Shown here: one piece after another, positions 41,758-58,856 of the stretch
Layout: each line of letters begins with the position of its first letter
Numbering within the stretch: the stretch's first letter is position 1
Assembly: GCA_032358255.1 (NCBI GenBank)
Contig: JAULBX010001447.1
Span: 62,001-126,000 of the forward strand
Direction: 5' to 3'
Origin: Heterotrichella gracilis
Lineage: Eukaryota > Sar > Xanthophyceae > Tribonematales > Xanthonemataceae
DNA length: 64,000 bases
Translations under genes and position numbers: made by a program
The notes under the pieces: model-generated
What the model was told of the DNA's origin: nothing
Seen by the model: the letters and a program-made list of their open reading frames with translations, nothing else
Databases searched by the model: none

Positions 41758-44700
41758 TCATTCGAACCTCAGCGGTGGCCTAAGCACCGCCTCCAGGCAA
41801 GCCACTGGTGAGAACTCTGGCAGCTGCTGGATCTTCTCGAGGATGACAAGGTTCTGGTAGGTCTGCAAGGGGAGGATGGGGGGGGTGATGGCATGACGTG
41901 TGGCATGCAGTGGTGGGGATTGAACCTGTATGCGCGCCTCCCCAAGGTGAGCAGAGGTCGATGCACATGCGTACAGATAATTAGGAGGATGGTGCGCCTG
42001 CCTTCAATATGCAATGTCACCCACCAATGAACCTGGTTCCCTGCATGTGCACTCAATCAGCAGCACATGCTGTAATGTTTAGGGTTTTCGTTGTAGATTT
42101 AGATGTGCCTCCACCCTCACTCTTGTGACCCAGTCCAGCAGCAGCGATTCGCAGTGAAGGGATCAGGTTTAGGGTTTTAGGGTTTAGCTTTCCCCACCTC
42201 CATCATGGTTGCCTGGTCAAGCAGCAGCGACCCGCAGTGCGCCAGTACCATCTTCATGTCCTTCTCAATGGGGGGGAAGCGCTTGCACTTGACGCGCATC
42301 AGGAAGTCGCTCACCTGCAGGAGAATCCGGGGTCAAGGGGGTGATGACATTGCGATGACAAATAAATGTGCTGGGGCATGTACAGGTAGGGGAGGGGTAT
42401 GGCAAAAATATGACATGACATGGGGACTGGTGTGTGGATAAAAAGGATGGCAAGGGTGGTGACGGCACCGATGTGGGCACAACAAGGAAGCTGGACGCTG
42501 GCAAGGTCATTAGGCTTTGTGAGGGGATTTTTGTAGGGTTGTAGGGTTTTTGCGCCACGCACCAGCAGCTCGCAGTATCGCACGCGCTGGTAGTGGGGGT
42601 TCTCCACCGAGTCGCCCCCTCCCCACTCCACCTTCCATGGGGACTTGCCCACCCAGCTTCCCGTCCCCTCCCGCAGCTGGAACCTGACCTTCCCCCCTTG
42701 GCGCCGCACCAGCACCGTCACCTTTTTGCCCACAGTCACCTTGGTGGTGCGCTCAAGGTACTGCATGGCCTGGCCCCAGTAGTGCTGGTAGCCAGGGGGG
42801 TTGGCGGGGAGGCCGTAAACGTAGGTGGAACCCATGTGGGGGGTGAGGTCATCGCCAGGGGGGGCTGAGGCGGAGCCATGGGGGGCGGCCAAGGGGGGCG
42901 CTGCGTCCAAGGGGACTGCAGCAGGGGCCTGGTCCTCCAGCGTCTGCTCAAATTGGATGGGGTCCAAATAGTAGCCGATGCCGAGGTCCCCCAATTTGAA
43001 CGCGTAGCCGGGCTTTTTGCCCTCCCACCACTCGGTGGCAATAAAGGGCACCTGCAGGAGGGATTGCTCAGGCTGCGCAGGGTCCTCTGGTGGGGGCACA
43101 TTTTCCTCCAATGTGGCGTCATTTTCAGGGTTGACCACCTCCTCAATGTCCCCATCCCCTTCAGATGCTTCGGGGGTGAGCGCCTCTCGCTCGGGGATGG
43201 CAGGTGTGTTTTGGTTGGGATTGATGTTTTCTGACAGTCCCCGAGCGTTGGGGACTGCGCGCACTGACTTGGCAGCCTGCTGCGGGACCACTGCATTTGC
43301 CAAATCTGCGGTTTCCTTAGTGCCATCTGCAAACCGCACTTTCCTCCCCCCTTCTTTCCCCTCCTGCTTTTCACCCCCTGCTGCAGCCCCGTGGGCACCC
43401 CCTGGCTGATTCTGGGATTGTGCTTCCTGGACAGCATCCCCAGCTGGCGCCTGGGGATCCGCTGGCTTGCGGGGAGTCGGGTGCAGGTTCTGCATTTGCA
43501 CAGGGTCCCAGGGGGGTGGCGCAAATGACATTTTGCCCGCATTGCTGCTACTCCCCCCTGGGGCCACATCCAGGTAGGACATGTAGGCATCCAGCATGCG
43601 CCCGTCAATGCCGACCCCCAGGGGCGCTGCGATCGTGTAGGGAAACAATGGGTAAGGGGCAAGATTGCGCATAGAGGTGTCCTCACAAAGGTGTAGTATA
43701 AATCGGTTGCAATTGCCTGACTCTGTGACGTGGTGCGCAATGTGGCCACAGTACATGTACTTTTAATTACATTTCCATGTGTCATGAAGGGACATTGCGA
43801 GCAGCAGCATTACATATGTACTCTTCCCCCCCTTCATTACCTGTGCTTATGGTGCTGTCCTCATCCAGATGCAGGTCAAACCAGAACACGATGGCATTGA
43901 GGTAGCCATCCTCCACGCACTCCAGCTTGAGCAGGCACTCCTTGCCGCGAATGGGTCGGTCCCCGTCAAAGAAAACCTCAAACACCCTCTGGGGTTTGGT
44001 GAGGCGCCGGTGGGGGATGGTGTCGATGAACACAGTCTCGTAGTCCTTGTCCCACCTGGGGCAGTAGGGTATGGGGCTTGGTTTAAGGTTTGCTTAGGGA
44101 TTCAGGATAAGGCTTACCAATAGGGATTCAGGGTTTTGGCTCAGGGTTACCACGGTGGCCCAAAACGCTGAACCCTGCACCTGAAACCCTCAAGATTGTT
44201 GTTAAGTATGAAGAACAGTCCTAGTCATCTGCAGATAGGGCAATGCTAGTCCCAAACCCACCAAATGGTATACACATGCACAGGAATGCCACAACATGCC
44301 GTACAGTTACAAGCTTTCTTCCACCACTCTGTCCCCCAGTTTAAAACATGCAGCTGCATTACCCCCATCACCCGCCCTCCCACCTGTACTTGTTGATCGC
44401 TGAGAAGTCAAATCCCTCCACCGCCCCAGTCAGGCATTCCAACCCCATGCAGTACATGGTTGCGGCCCCGGGGATGATGGCTGCGTTGTAGGTCAGCACC
44501 CTGCGCTTGGCCTGGTCAAGGATGTACTCCATGGCGGTGCCAAGCAGGCCTGGAGGAGAGTGGCAGAGGCGTAAATTACATTAACATATTCATTTATATT
44601 TAAAAGAAAAACATCATTTACAATTGTATTTGTCTGTTTGTATATATGCAACCTGTTTATGAACACGCGTCACAAATGAAGAGCTGGTAAATGGTGTTGC

Positions 44701-53215: not shown

Positions 53216-56200
53216 TCACTCCCCGGTCCTAGGCCTGGCAGACCGCGCTGGGCTCATCATGATGAGGTGCGCTGCGTCGTCATCATGAGACACAACCTCC
53301 ATGGCCGAAGTAGCCGCAGCCGCAGCCACCGCACCCCCGCCCTCCGACCCCTCCGCCATCAACCCTGCTATGGGCCATGACTTGACCACCCCCTTCTTCC
53401 CAGAGGACCCCGAGCCCTCATCGCCCCACAGGTCCCCGCCAAGGATGTCCTTTAGGCCCCGGGTGCTGATGTGGCCCTTGGGCGTGCGCCCCTCCCCATT
53501 TGACCCCCCGCTGCCGGGGCGGGCGCCAGGTGTCGCACCAGCAAAGGGCGTGTGGAGGCCTGGCTTGGAGGAGAGAGGCCCGCTGCCCCAGGTGGGCATG
53601 CGGATGCCAAACGAGGGCTTTGGAGTGACCTCCTGCATGTGGGGAGGGGGGATGCTGATGATTTGAAGTGGCAACTTCATAGCATCAGCCCTGCTAGGAC
53701 CTGGTTCAGATGATACATGGTCAGTATGCACATGCGCACATGGGATCAAGTGCCATGTGCTACACAGTTGTACAAATAAGTGCATTGCCATCAGGCAATT
53801 GATTGCATGACCCCCTCACCCCCAATGCACCACGCGCACCCACACCACATGAGGCCACCCTTCTAGCATGGATCATACTGCCTGTACCCCCAACCCGAGG
53901 CACACGCACCGCTGCCATCGCCAGCGCCTGTGCAGCCGCCGGCGCCTCCTCCTCCACCCGCAGGGAGTTGGGCGACACCATGTGGAAGCTCAGCGCACCA
54001 GCCGCCTCGGGAGATGCGCAGCCCTCGGGGCCCTGGCGGCGCATGGACAGCACCAGGTGGCCCTCGCCCTCGGTCTGCATGCGCACCCGCAGCGGGGGGC
54101 GCGGGGAGGGACCAAGTTGGGTGCCTGGGGTGGGAGCGCCTTCCCCACTGGATGATCGGCTGACCTCCCCTGCCTGTGCGCCCTCCTGGGGTTTTGACGC
54201 AAGCAATACTGCTGGTTGGGAAGCATTGGAGGGCGCGGGCTCAATGTCTGGGGCCGGGCTAGCCTCCCCATTGGATGATTGGGTGACCTCCCATGGCTGT
54301 GAGGGCTCCTGAGTGGCTCCATCAACTGGCGAGCACTGTGCGTCGTTTATGGCGATGTAGCTGGTACCCTCCTGTTCCTCCCCCTCCCTCTTGACCTCTG
54401 TGTTGTCCACACCTTGATGGCGACCAGAAGCGTCAGATGGGCTTGATGAGACAGCAGTCCCATTGGCAGCAGCTGATCTAGATGGTGCCAGGACGATTAT
54501 CTCCCCTGTCACATCGTCATCCGAATCCTCCCCTTGGGCGCCTGCTGCACCACTGGCAAAGGGGGTCTCCAGCGGCCCTGCAGCAACATGCAGCCATGCC
54601 ATTCAGCACCTGTGCATGTGGCTAACACAGATTGAATAAAGTTGACTGAGTGTCGACTGAGCGCATTCACCCAGCCATGGTCAGCAGGCGATGTTGACAA
54701 TTGCATGCAGGCTAGTCAATGACATATATGCACTTGGGCTTTGGCCCCATATGAAGTGCAGATCACCAGGATATACCTGATTCTGGAGAGGCACCCTTGA
54801 CAGCCACATCATCAAACTGCAGCTGCACCGCCGGCCCCCTGTCATTCGCCACAGCGGGGGCGCTATCACCCGCAGCGGAGGGGGTGAGCGCCACTGCCAC
54901 CGCACCTGTGCCCTCTGCCACGCTCAGCTCCAGCCGAAGCGGCGTCCCCTCCATGGCATCAAGATCAGGAGCCGTGTCAACACGTGCAGCGGCGTCCACG
55001 TTGGTACCACCTGTATCCCCTGCAAGTGGTTGCTCGCCAGCTGTATCGCCGAAATCCGGCTGAACAAGTGGCGTTGCCTGATCACAGGGCGTGCCATGTG
55101 GCGCCAACGCACCATCCTTGGGGGTCAGCGGCACCCCCTCCCCACACACCCCAAGCCCAACATGCTCCCAATAGGAGCCTGGTACGGAGGCATCTAGAGT
55201 GTATGCCAAGGGGGGAGACGGACGCGGCCGCGAAGGGGAGGGAGAGAGCACCAGCGCCACCAGGCCAGCCCCAGCATCCACCCGCAGCTCTGCCTGGAGC
55301 GGCCCATCCATGGAGAAAGATGCCTCTTGGTCAGGCTGTTGATGGCCCAGGGGGCGGCGCCTGGTGCCAGAGGGAGTGAGCGAGACTGTCACGTGGTCCG
55401 CGCCATGTGCCACCGCCAGCTCAACCTCCACAGCCTGCTGTGCATCTGCCATGGCTGCGGCTGCAACGGGGGCATCAGGGACAGCGCTGTTGCCAGGGAA
55501 TGCCAGCCGGCGCCTCTGGATTGCTGATGCCGGGCTGAGCAGCACGGCCACATGATGCGCCTGCTCATCCACATCCAATTCAAGTTCGATGGGTGCGTGG
55601 GGCACGTCAGGCTGCCCCTCCACCCGCTTGCGCTTGATGCTCCCGGGAGGGCTGAGCAGAAGAGAGCGCGCCACTGCATCCTGCTCCCCGCCGCCTGTCT
55701 GCTCCATGCTGCCACGTGGCGCACCATGTGGCTCGCCACTCCCCTGCCTGGCGTCGGACCCCGGCTGCGGAGTCAGCATGACCGACACCTGGCCGGTTGC
55801 GCCCACCACCTGGAGCACCACCTCCACCGCCTGGCCCGCCACCACATCCTGCTGCGGGGTCTGGAACTGGGAGGAGGTATCTGATCGAGCGTCGTCGGCA
55901 TCGTGGTAGACGGTTTCGTGCGATGTCCCAACCCTAGAGACCCTACGGGGTGCGCTGCAGGGGCTGATGGCGAGCTTGACAGCGCTGGGTGAGACGCTCC
56001 ACTCACATGCCACCGAGGATGCATCCGCAGATGAGCTTGCCACATCCGGTGGCGCCGGCGCTGTGGAAGAGGTGGTGCGGGGGGCAGGAGGTGGCCTGCC
56101 AGTTGGGCTGACGCCCGCCGCTGCCGCGGGCGCTGCCTCTGGCCCATCAAAGTGCAGCTGCACCGCTGGGTTGTCCTCGTGCGCCACAGGGGGTGCGCCA

Positions 56201-58856
56201 TCACGTGCGGCAGAGGGGGTGAGTGCCACGGCAACCGAGCCCCCGCACTTTGACACGCTCAGCTCCAGCCGAACTGGCGACCTCTCGGCGCCATCAACAT
56301 GGGCATGTGGGTGGGGCGCATGGCCTGGCGTCAGCACCAGGGACACCTCCCCCGAGGCTGCATGCACATCCAGGTCCACCTGGAGCCTACCGCTGCCGCC
56401 AGCAACACCCCTGTCAAGGGGCTGCACAAAGTGGGCCTCGGCGCTGCCTGGATTGGAGTCCGGAACAGGGCGCCTGCGGCTGGGGCTGGGGCTGAGCTCC
56501 ACTGACACTGACGCGGTGGCTTCAGAGACTTGCAGCTGCAGCTCTACCCCCTCGGCTGCAAGACCCTGGGTCGGGGATGACCCCGAGGCGTCTGCAGGTG
56601 ACAAACCCCGCTCCTCTCCTTGGGATGCAGCAGGTGCTGACTCATCCCCAACAGATTCTGCCACCGCCACCGCTGCAGCTGCTGCAGAGGGTGCCGCTTC
56701 CCTCCCGGTGGGCAAAGCTGCTTCCTCCCCTGGGGCAGCGCCAGGTGGCGCTCTGCCGGGGCGCCCACTGGCCATGATAAAGGTGTGCGCCTGGGGTGGC
56801 GGGGTGAGTGGCAGGGGTTGCTGGGAGGGTTTTGACAGGAACCAGCTGGCGATGCCGCCCGGCTTCTTGGCCTGGGCGTCGAAGCGCAGGAGCGACAGCT
56901 GGGTGGACAGCTCCTGCAGCTGCTTGCGCATGCTGCTGTGGATGTAGGCCTGGGGCAGGGGGGGAAGGGGGGATTGAGCAACAGACACCCACACTGGATT
57001 GTGGCACATGGGCGGAGAATGTGCAGATGAAACCTGCACCTGCCATGAGACTGCCATGCAGCGGTGCCACAAGCTGCTGCCACAAGCTGGCAGCATGAGA
57101 AACGTTCATGATTCATAATTGCCACGGATCTTTGAGCACAGGTATGTTTTCAAACCCAAGTGGGGTGGTACAGAATGAAGGTGATCGCATGCATGGCATA
57201 CCTTGACAGCCGCTAGCTGACCCAGAATGTTTTGGCGGAAGCACAGCAATCCCCACACTGCCTTGTTCAGTTTCTCCCCCTTGATGTGCTGCTTCTGGAA
57301 GGTGAGTGTGATGTAGCCCGCTGAACCGCCAGGGATCGTGTCTGCATCACCTTGAGCGTCTCGCAGCCCCTGGACATACAGAGGTGGGGCCTGCACATGG
57401 ACACGTGATGATCAAACCCTAATTGAACCCTTATCAAACCCTTCTACCATGTCACCTTCACCCATCCTGATCCCACCTCAAGACAATGCACCGTGCCATG
57501 CTCAACACCCCATGACCATGCATGCGTTTTCTTGTTTGCAACTGTCCACATTCAGCATAGATAACTTCATCTGTTGCAATGCGCCAGGTGGCATGCAAGC
57601 ACTCACCAAGGCAGGTGAGTAGGAGCATGAAGGGACGTCGCTGCTTCCCCACAGCTTAGTTTTGCTCGCCCCCCTAGGCAATCCCTGCAGCAGGGACACA
57701 CTGGACTTCAGTATCGGCTCATCCATGGCCCCCATGCCTGCCATGAGTAACACCAGTGACCTTTCAGATGGGCTGCCTGTTGTGACACGTGATGAGCCGC
57801 AATGCTGTTTGGTGATGTGCCAATGGAGTCCGGACGTTAAGTGCGATCTGGCAGTTGCCCAAACTCAATGGTTCTGCACACCCCTTAGGGCAGTACTCTG
57901 GCACACAAGCTGTAATGGTTTTAGACTTGCAGCTGACAGGCGTACAGTCCAGGCTTGGGTCAACAGTCCCCGGGCGCAGTACCTGCAGCACAGTCAGCAG
58001 CAGTGCGTCGTCCTGCTGGCTGCCCTTGAGGTCGAAGGCAAAGGTGGCGGTGGCGCCCTCAGCGGTCCTGGTCAGCACCATCTGGTTGGTGGTAGACAGG
58101 TGCACCTGGACAGGCTCTGGCTCGCTGGCTGCAGGGCAGCCTAGAAGCTCCCTGGCCAGAGAATGCAAGCAGTCAAAAGCGGACAGTCACAAGGTGTAGC
58201 CACCATTTCACACCCACTAGGGTTCTTATTTGGAGACGAGGTGCCCTGCTCCTGTAAGGGAATGGATTGGGCATTGTGCTAGTAAACACATGTGGATAAG
58301 AATTAGGCGGGCATTTGAAAATTGAGCTCATTGCATGAAGGTTTCTACCTTCCTTTTGGAGTATGAACTATGAACTATCAGTGCTTACCCAATCAAGGTG
58401 CCCATCTGTCACTGCAGTTTCTCCCCCTGCTTGTCCTGGATTTTTATATTAACAAGCTCCTTGCAAGCAATCCTACCTGAGCTCTTGGCCCTGTATTGGT
58501 AGGCGGAGAGAGGCGAGCTGACGTGCAACATCTCGCTTGTTGGGTATGACACCCAAGGCCACCAGGTCGATATTCAGCACTACTTGGGCACCAGGGCGTT
58601 CTGGCTCCAAGCCCACCACCATGGGAAACTTGTCAAGCAACGCCTGCAACTCTGATGGCACTGTACACTGTCTGCCTTCTTGACTGAAGGCGAGGCGCAG
58701 CTTGCTGCGGCTGGCCTTGTCCGAAAAAAGCCGATACTCCACCCCATCGAACTCCAGGCAAAGCTTTTCAAACGTGGCACCACTTTGCAAGTTGTCTAAC
58801 CGCTTGATGATTGCTTGGTAGACGGAGGAGTTGAGCACGGGTAAGGACAAAGCCAT
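53216..58856 (-). CDS. ARPC2-like Arp2/3 subunit with giant C-terminal repeat extension
   Basis: The first ~310 residues match ARPC2 (p34-Arc), the core Arp2/3-complex subunit that nucleates branched actin. Exons in transcript order: 58856-58477, 58151-57983, 57684-57607, 57390-57202, 56949-54777, 54577-53888, 53700-53216, giving 1,387 residues. ARPC2 landmarks are LEFDGVEYRLF, ATFAFDLKGSQQDDALLLTVLQ, VPSCSYSPALAPPLYVQG, AGYITLTFQKQHIKGEKLNKA and AYIHSSMRKQLQEL. ARPC2 is normally about 300 residues. Here the 2.17-kb exon 5 runs from the final ARPC2 helix straight into an Ala/Pro/Ser-rich extension with no stop. The extension contains about ten copies of a two-strand repeat of form VELxLxV...GxVxVxLTPS (between 54039 and 56554), then Glu/Ser-rich sequence with SDDDVTGEIIVLAPS and a Gly-rich end. 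The extension's function is unknown. A missed splice skipping it cannot be excluded. Confidence 0.82.
54039..56554 (-). repeat. Ten-copy coding repeat (two-strand LTPS units) in the ARPC2-like extension
   Basis: Units read roughly [PA]VELxLxVxxxxGxVxVxL[ST]P[SG]xxRR. Approximate plus-strand spans: 56490-56554, 56330-56392, 56213-56278, 55960-56012 (degenerate), 55772-55833, 55533-55592, 55373-55437, 55240-55302, 54877-54943 and 54039-54096 (degenerate, in the next exon). The units at 56213 and 54877 are nearest to each other (VAVALTPSAA) and are both followed by PAVQLxFD. Confidence 0.75.

Follow-up and report, generated by a model that had tools for sequence, protein, structure and literature searches.

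The gene that lies on the minus strand between positions 58856 and 53216 of the stretch of DNA analysed here (64,000 nucleotides, called the window in what follows) is, by its sequence, a genuine ARPC2. Contig C17 contains this window, and the genome searched amounts to 68.5 Mb in 903 contigs, in which no second ARPC2 was found. The product of the gene very probably continues, as one and the same protein, into a C-terminal tail of 1055 residues (277-1331), in which a 24-residue unit, predicted to form a beta-hairpin ending in an S/T-P dipeptide, occurs eight times. We propose, with a probability of about one half, that this tail would behave as a phospho-regulated multivalent tether.

The ARPC2 core and its gene model

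The core of the protein covers residues 1-276. Its C-terminal half is clearly matched, with the P34-Arc family (Pfam PF04045) recognized at residues 183-262 (E 3.5e-7, 30.6 bits for a cut-off of 27), and comparison with the ARPC2 sequences of the PDB retrieves 3dwl_D (E 2.4e-5) and 1k8k_D (E 6.5e-4), which we take to be the S. pombe and the bovine subunit, respectively. The N-terminal segment is weakly matched, at 7.1 bits with 3dwl_D, and falls in the expected place. From residue 301 onward no Pfam family rises above its cut-off, and no confirmed relative of the core was found in viral and prokaryotic contig collections, where such an absence says little.

The spliced model has six exons, making 1331 codons followed by a stop codon, and all five of its introns are of the GT...AG type. 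The start ATG at 58856, the stop codon at 53218-53216 and the strand bear out the initial annotation, which had counted 1387 residues; the surplus of 56 residues presumably comes from other splice choices, maybe in exons 5 and 6. These two exons appear to be the least certain part of the model, with borders placed at consensus sites alone. The exons are as follows:

58477..58856, minus strand: exon 1, N-terminal half of the ARPC2 core, residues 1-127, weakly aligned with the S. pombe and bovine N-termini
57983..58151, minus strand: exon 2, ARPC2 core, in the spliced model
57202..57390, minus strand: exon 3, ARPC2 core, where the P34-Arc match begins
54777..56949, minus strand: exon 4, 2173 nt, opening with residues 247-276 (last ARPC2 helix) and continuing in frame into the extension with all eight repeats
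53910..54577, minus strand: exon 5, extension, with no repeat above shuffle level
53216..53632, minus strand: exon 6, extension and stop codon

To our knowledge, the subunits of Arp2/3 are compact and conserved in length; at 1331 residues, the protein far exceeds the length of about 300 residues that is usual for ARPC2, a trait that does not define the family. The pentanucleotide TGTAA, which we take to be the polyadenylation mark of green algae, proved useless here: the window contains 98 of them for 92 expected, and none was found on the minus strand from 59259 to 52538.

Partners that should accompany an ARPC2 are present in the genome, which carries exons of Arp3 (best PDB match 3.6e-23), of Arp2 (5.6e-17) and of ARPC4, together with actin exons and a CYFIP/SRA1-like gene, a subunit of the WAVE complex. 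ARPC3 and ARPC5 gave no match in a search of the genome with family models; as this search also missed ARPC2 itself, the result does not speak for their absence. ARPC4 seems, from its exons, to stop at what we take to be its usual terminus, which suggests that the complex does not, as a rule, bear long C-terminal tails. The last ARPC4 exon is present twice in tandem (contig C365, about 203548-206838, minus strand), one copy ending with ...ISADVLKSFT-stop and a similar copy lying downstream, REYVCLFAELLYIRGSELRLNLMARTTAISAN...; this second last exon may be an alternative one or a decaying duplicate.

One reading frame from the core into the tail

Exon 4, which opens on the last helix of ARPC2, AYIHSSMRKQLQELSTQLSLL, remains free of in-frame stops for 724 codons. 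In 500 first-order Markov sequences derived from this exon, the longest run without a stop, taken over three frames, had a mean of 241 codons and a maximum of 611. It is within these 2173 nt that the tail is entered, in frame with the core, and the long extension past the ARPC2 landmarks that had been noticed by the initial annotation is confirmed. The GC content of exon 4, measured in 150-nt windows, varies between 0.61 and 0.74, against 0.41-0.59 in the five introns, with no overlap between the two ranges. In the model, each of the five introns opens with GTA or GTG, and neither triplet occurs in exon 4 before residue 307, where four GTC or GTT are present. A strict donor pattern had also come up blank in this region, which is weak evidence, as it fits just two of the five model donors; the blank holds when the search is redone with GTA/GTG, which fits all five.

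Codon usage was explored with a score trained on 1144 codons taken, in this genome, from exons of ARPC4 and of the actin family. The ARPC2 frame came out best of six in eight of the nine tail windows (the final 20 residues of the tail lying outside these windows), the exception being residues 852-966, where a reverse frame is slightly preferred. The score is negative in all six frames for each of the five introns and for the 3′ flank. When it is limited to synonymous choice, the coding frame is not singled out in the tail.

It could be argued that two genes are involved, with ARPC2 ending near residue 280-300 and the extension making a separate protein, starting for example from the in-frame ATG at residue 305. 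Around this ATG, position -3 is A and position +4 is G; the junction window, residues 277-391, has a codon score among the lowest three of the nine windows of the tail, and the GC2 of residues 277-378 is 0.71. A message limited to ARPC2 would nevertheless need an unusual donor or lack a stop codon, since exon 4 has no in-frame stop after ARPC2 and no GTA/GTG before residue 307. Its GC content stays above that of the introns in every 150-nt window. We therefore hold two genes to be very unlikely, and the fused protein proposed by the initial annotation appears to be well supported by frame, donors, GC content and codon bias.

Antisense to exon 4, the plus strand of the window (55910-56947) contains an open frame of 345 codons. 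It probably mirrors the coding strand, which is GC-rich, because the ARPC2 frame outscores the reverse frames in five of the six exon-4 windows. Ten other long open frames, out of the 64 of at least 150 codons in the window, were compared with Pfam and matched no family; a stop-to-stop frame of 483 codons (42314-43762, minus strand) is without a match in Pfam at E 0.01.

Just past the ARPC2 helix, residues 277-296 (56800-56859, minus strand) read GGIASWFLSKPSQQPLPLTP. Eleven of these 20 residues are identical to those of a human 4E-T peptide (PDB 6f9w_B), which we take to be a ligand of LSM14, at an E value of 0.54 over the whole PDB. The resemblance is probably due to chance, the segment offering at most a hint of a short linear motif, and the available text of PMC8984151 adds nothing to the case.

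The repeated unit and its S/T-P sites

The tail, in which A, S, P and G account for 48% of the residues, holds its eight copies of the unit within exon 4, and none in exons 5 and 6:

56476..56547, minus strand: repeat 1, residues 381-404
56314..56385, minus strand: repeat 2, residues 435-458
56203..56274, minus strand: repeat 3, residues 472-495, a near-duplicate of repeat 8, with similarity over about 44 residues
55756..55827, minus strand: repeat 4, residues 621-644
55519..55590, minus strand: repeat 5, residues 700-723
55360..55431, minus strand: repeat 6, residues 753-776, the copy for which the hairpin was modelled (mean pLDDT 82.7)
55228..55299, minus strand: repeat 7, residues 797-820
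54868..54939, minus strand: repeat 8, residues 917-940

Irregularly spaced, with starts 37-149 residues apart, the copies follow the consensus hydrophobic-E-hydrophobic-E-L-x-V-x4-G-x-V-x-V-x-L-[ST]-P-S, built around the core LxV(x6)VxxxL[ST]P: five residues (L5, V7, V14, L18 and P20) never vary, and position 19 holds either S or T in all eight. Ungapped comparison of the tail with itself yields pair scores of up to 82, against 47 at most in 30 shuffles. With a leave-one-out PSSM the repeats score 22.4-37.3 bits, while the best of 300 shuffled tails reaches 9.9; an HMM of the repeat, which was not leave-one-out, gives them 43.7-49.5 for a maximum of 6.1 in 200 shuffles, and finds nothing beyond the eight copies above shuffle level. 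Half-repeats near residues 334, 572, 675 and 1011 score under the best shuffled sequence, and for this reason we claim eight copies only. The idea of 12 or more copies, extending into exons 5 and 6, was likewise dropped, as the HMM finds just eight, in exon 4 only. The "repeat extension" of the initial annotation was right, and can now be made precise as eight units, each a predicted beta-hairpin with [ST]P, restricted to this exon.

The copies are most alike in the coding frame (mean similarity 43.6, compared with 25.9 for the second-best of the six frames, over 28 pairs), and their divergence is highest at third codon positions, 0.585, compared with 0.347 at second positions. Furthermore, pN is smaller than pS in all 21 in-register pairs, counted with the pairs of repeat 5 left out, and which share sequences and are therefore not independent. 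Likeness in the coding frame and at second positions, with pN below pS, speaks for selection on the protein sequence of the repeat.

When a hand-made consensus of the repeat was compared with the genome, six matches were obtained, all in exon 4 of ARPC2, and repeats 2 and 4 were missed. No copy of the unit was found outside the ARPC2 gene by this search, which catches six of the eight known copies, so that a distant copy elsewhere in the genome could escape it as well. Pfam returned only DUF7590, at E 0.04, below the cut-off of that family and for one of the eight copies, and a profile search of the PDB returned a single match, at E 0.87. As far as its sequence can be compared, the unit formed by hairpin and S/T-P thus seems to resemble nothing convincingly, beyond chance, in Pfam or the PDB.

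Provided with the alignment of the eight copies, AlphaFold2 predicts, at a mean pLDDT of 82.7, a two-stranded beta-hairpin whose strands span positions 5-12 and 17-24 of a 32-residue stretch, the S/T-P being placed at the end of the second strand. Without alignment, exon 4 is predicted to be mostly unstructured (mean pLDDT 36.8); this low-confidence model has two-stranded hairpins at four of the eight repeats (1, 2, 6 and 7) and no full hairpin at the other four. As modelled, the hairpin would be amphipathic, alternating hydrophobic residues giving it one greasy face, and it follows that a lone unit would be likely to need a partner. Between hairpins, the tail is probably flexible or disordered.

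The other prominent feature of the tail is its richness in [ST]P: 38 sites are present, while 2000 shuffles gave 17.9 (sd 3.7, max 31). Outside the repeats there are 27, for 15.0 expected, a number reached in one of the 2000 shuffles, and the ARPC2 core has none. Six of the tail sites are followed by basic runs. Most of the 38 lack the full CDK consensus, since the basic residue at +3 of [ST]Px[KR] is present at five of them; the pattern does not appear to name a particular kinase. The "phosphorylation-controlled spacer" once suggested for the tail fits this doubled number of sites, which are putative targets of phosphorylation. Two basic motifs are also worth recording:

55618..55635, minus strand: KRKRVE, residues 685-690, a basic cluster and the single tail match to K[KR].[KR], presumably resembling a monopartite nuclear localisation signal
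55498..55515, minus strand: RRRLAF, residues 725-730, one of three tail matches to a loose pattern, beginning seven residues past the serine in the S-P that closes repeat 5's second strand and presumably resembling a cyclin-docking RxL motif

What the tail may do, and how it compares with known systems

In the branch junction of S. pombe, described at 2.7 Å, residues 300-317 of ARPC2 connect Arp2, at its subdomain 4, to actin subunit M3 of the mother filament, R306 and K307 being in contact (PMC10918085). Residue 274 of the present protein aligns with S. pombe residue 305, R306 and K307 being within a residue of K274 and K275, and it is on this alignment that the extension would begin at the contact with the mother filament. 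As the last residues of S. pombe ARPC2 bridge the mother filament and Arp2, the tail should exit there, and its location at the branch base, put forward by the initial annotation, draws support from that published structure.

We can therefore outline how such a protein might work. Its first 276 residues or so would fold as ARPC2 and sit on the mother filament with ARPC4, the two subunits forming a main contact with that filament (PMC7755917), and the tail would leave the complex where the end of S. pombe ARPC2 lies, between mother actin and Arp2. It would be a flexible chain with eight amphipathic hairpin modules, each ending in S/T-P and several of them then followed by basic residues. These modules may bind a partner, or one another, via their hydrophobic faces, so that the tail would cluster or anchor branch junctions; proline-directed kinases, of the CDK or MAPK type, would phosphorylate the S/T-P at the end of the strands, and the binding of the modules would be switched in this way. 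The tether would thus combine a core, a fusion, a set of repeats and an S/T-P enrichment that are read in the sequence, hairpins that are predicted, and an exit point that is borrowed from the literature, with linkers that may be disordered and with binding, phosphorylation and clustering that would have to occur. Of the earlier interpretation, fused protein, repeats and branch base are supported, while tethering and the recruitment of regulators are roles that we infer. A multivalent and possibly phospho-regulated tail would allow one to ask directly whether branch junctions cluster or tether in cis.

The main rival of this regulated tether is a tail that is merely carried along, a disordered extension rich in Ala, Gly, Ser and Pro, which slippage and the duplication of segments would have lengthened in a GC-rich region, and which would be tolerated because it projects outward from the complex. 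Long extensions of this composition are common in GC-rich green algae, so that part of the ARPC2 tail may be near-neutral filler. The bias towards A, S, P and G, the irregular spacing of the repeats, the lack of a confident AlphaFold2 fold for exon 4 and the resemblance of repeats 3 and 8, similar to a recent duplicate over some 44 residues, would all be accounted for. We nevertheless hold a passive tail to be the less likely reading: six core positions are kept in eight repeats out of eight, the third codon positions are those that differ most, pN remains below pS in each of the 21 in-register pairs, and [ST]P is in excess outside the repeats too.

It seems unlikely that the tail would go as far as to make a self-clustering branch hub, in which the eight hairpins would zip with those of neighbouring complexes, or with a dedicated partner, on the side of the mother filament, until cell-cycle kinases dissolve the clusters through phosphorylation of the S/T-P that ends each module's strand. 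Were this true, the regulation of Arp2/3 would be built into the complex, instead of being supplied by nucleation-promoting or branch-stabilising factors. Finally, a nuclear or mitotic variant of Arp2/3, suggested by KRKRVE and RRRLAF, in which basic clusters of the tail would serve as nuclear localisation signals and the S/T-P array would be read by cell-cycle kinases, by analogy with the Plasmodium complex that acts at the mitotic spindle with large extras of its own (PMC13340494), is quite improbable, as motifs of four to six residues easily arise by chance in 1055 residues, and the WAVE-complex subunit of the genome points to ordinary cytoplasmic activation.

Regulated or not, the protein has to be compared with what is known of its family. 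With canonical ARPC2 (PF04045; 3dwl_D, 1k8k_D) it shares a core of about 276 residues, clearly in the C-terminal half, which is above the Pfam cut-off, and weakly in the N-terminal half; the four matched PDB sequences are 285-317 residues long, whereas here the chain goes on for 1055 residues past the last common helix. From this, Arp2/3 seems able to bear an addition almost four times as large as the subunit itself. The C-terminal tail of S. pombe ARPC2 (300-317; PMC10918085) occupies the equivalent position in the protein, but that subunit has 317 residues in all, while the present chain runs more than 1000 residues further. ARPC2 itself is ordinary, and Arp2/3 subunits with large extensions are already on record in Plasmodium (PMC13340494); no report of a long ARPC2 was found in the literature among the matches listed, as represented by titles and abstract openings.

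The Plasmodium complex, an atypical Arp2/3 endowed with large extra loops and extensions, is like the present one in that its subunits have acquired large extras, the arrangement of the complex being kept in prediction. In the accessible text of that study (PMC13340494) it is the extended N-terminal domain of ARPC4 that is singled out, and no repeat-tailed ARPC2 is reported. Here, by contrast, it is ARPC2 that bears the repeat tail, ARPC4 seems to end normally, and a CYFIP-like gene is present in the genome.
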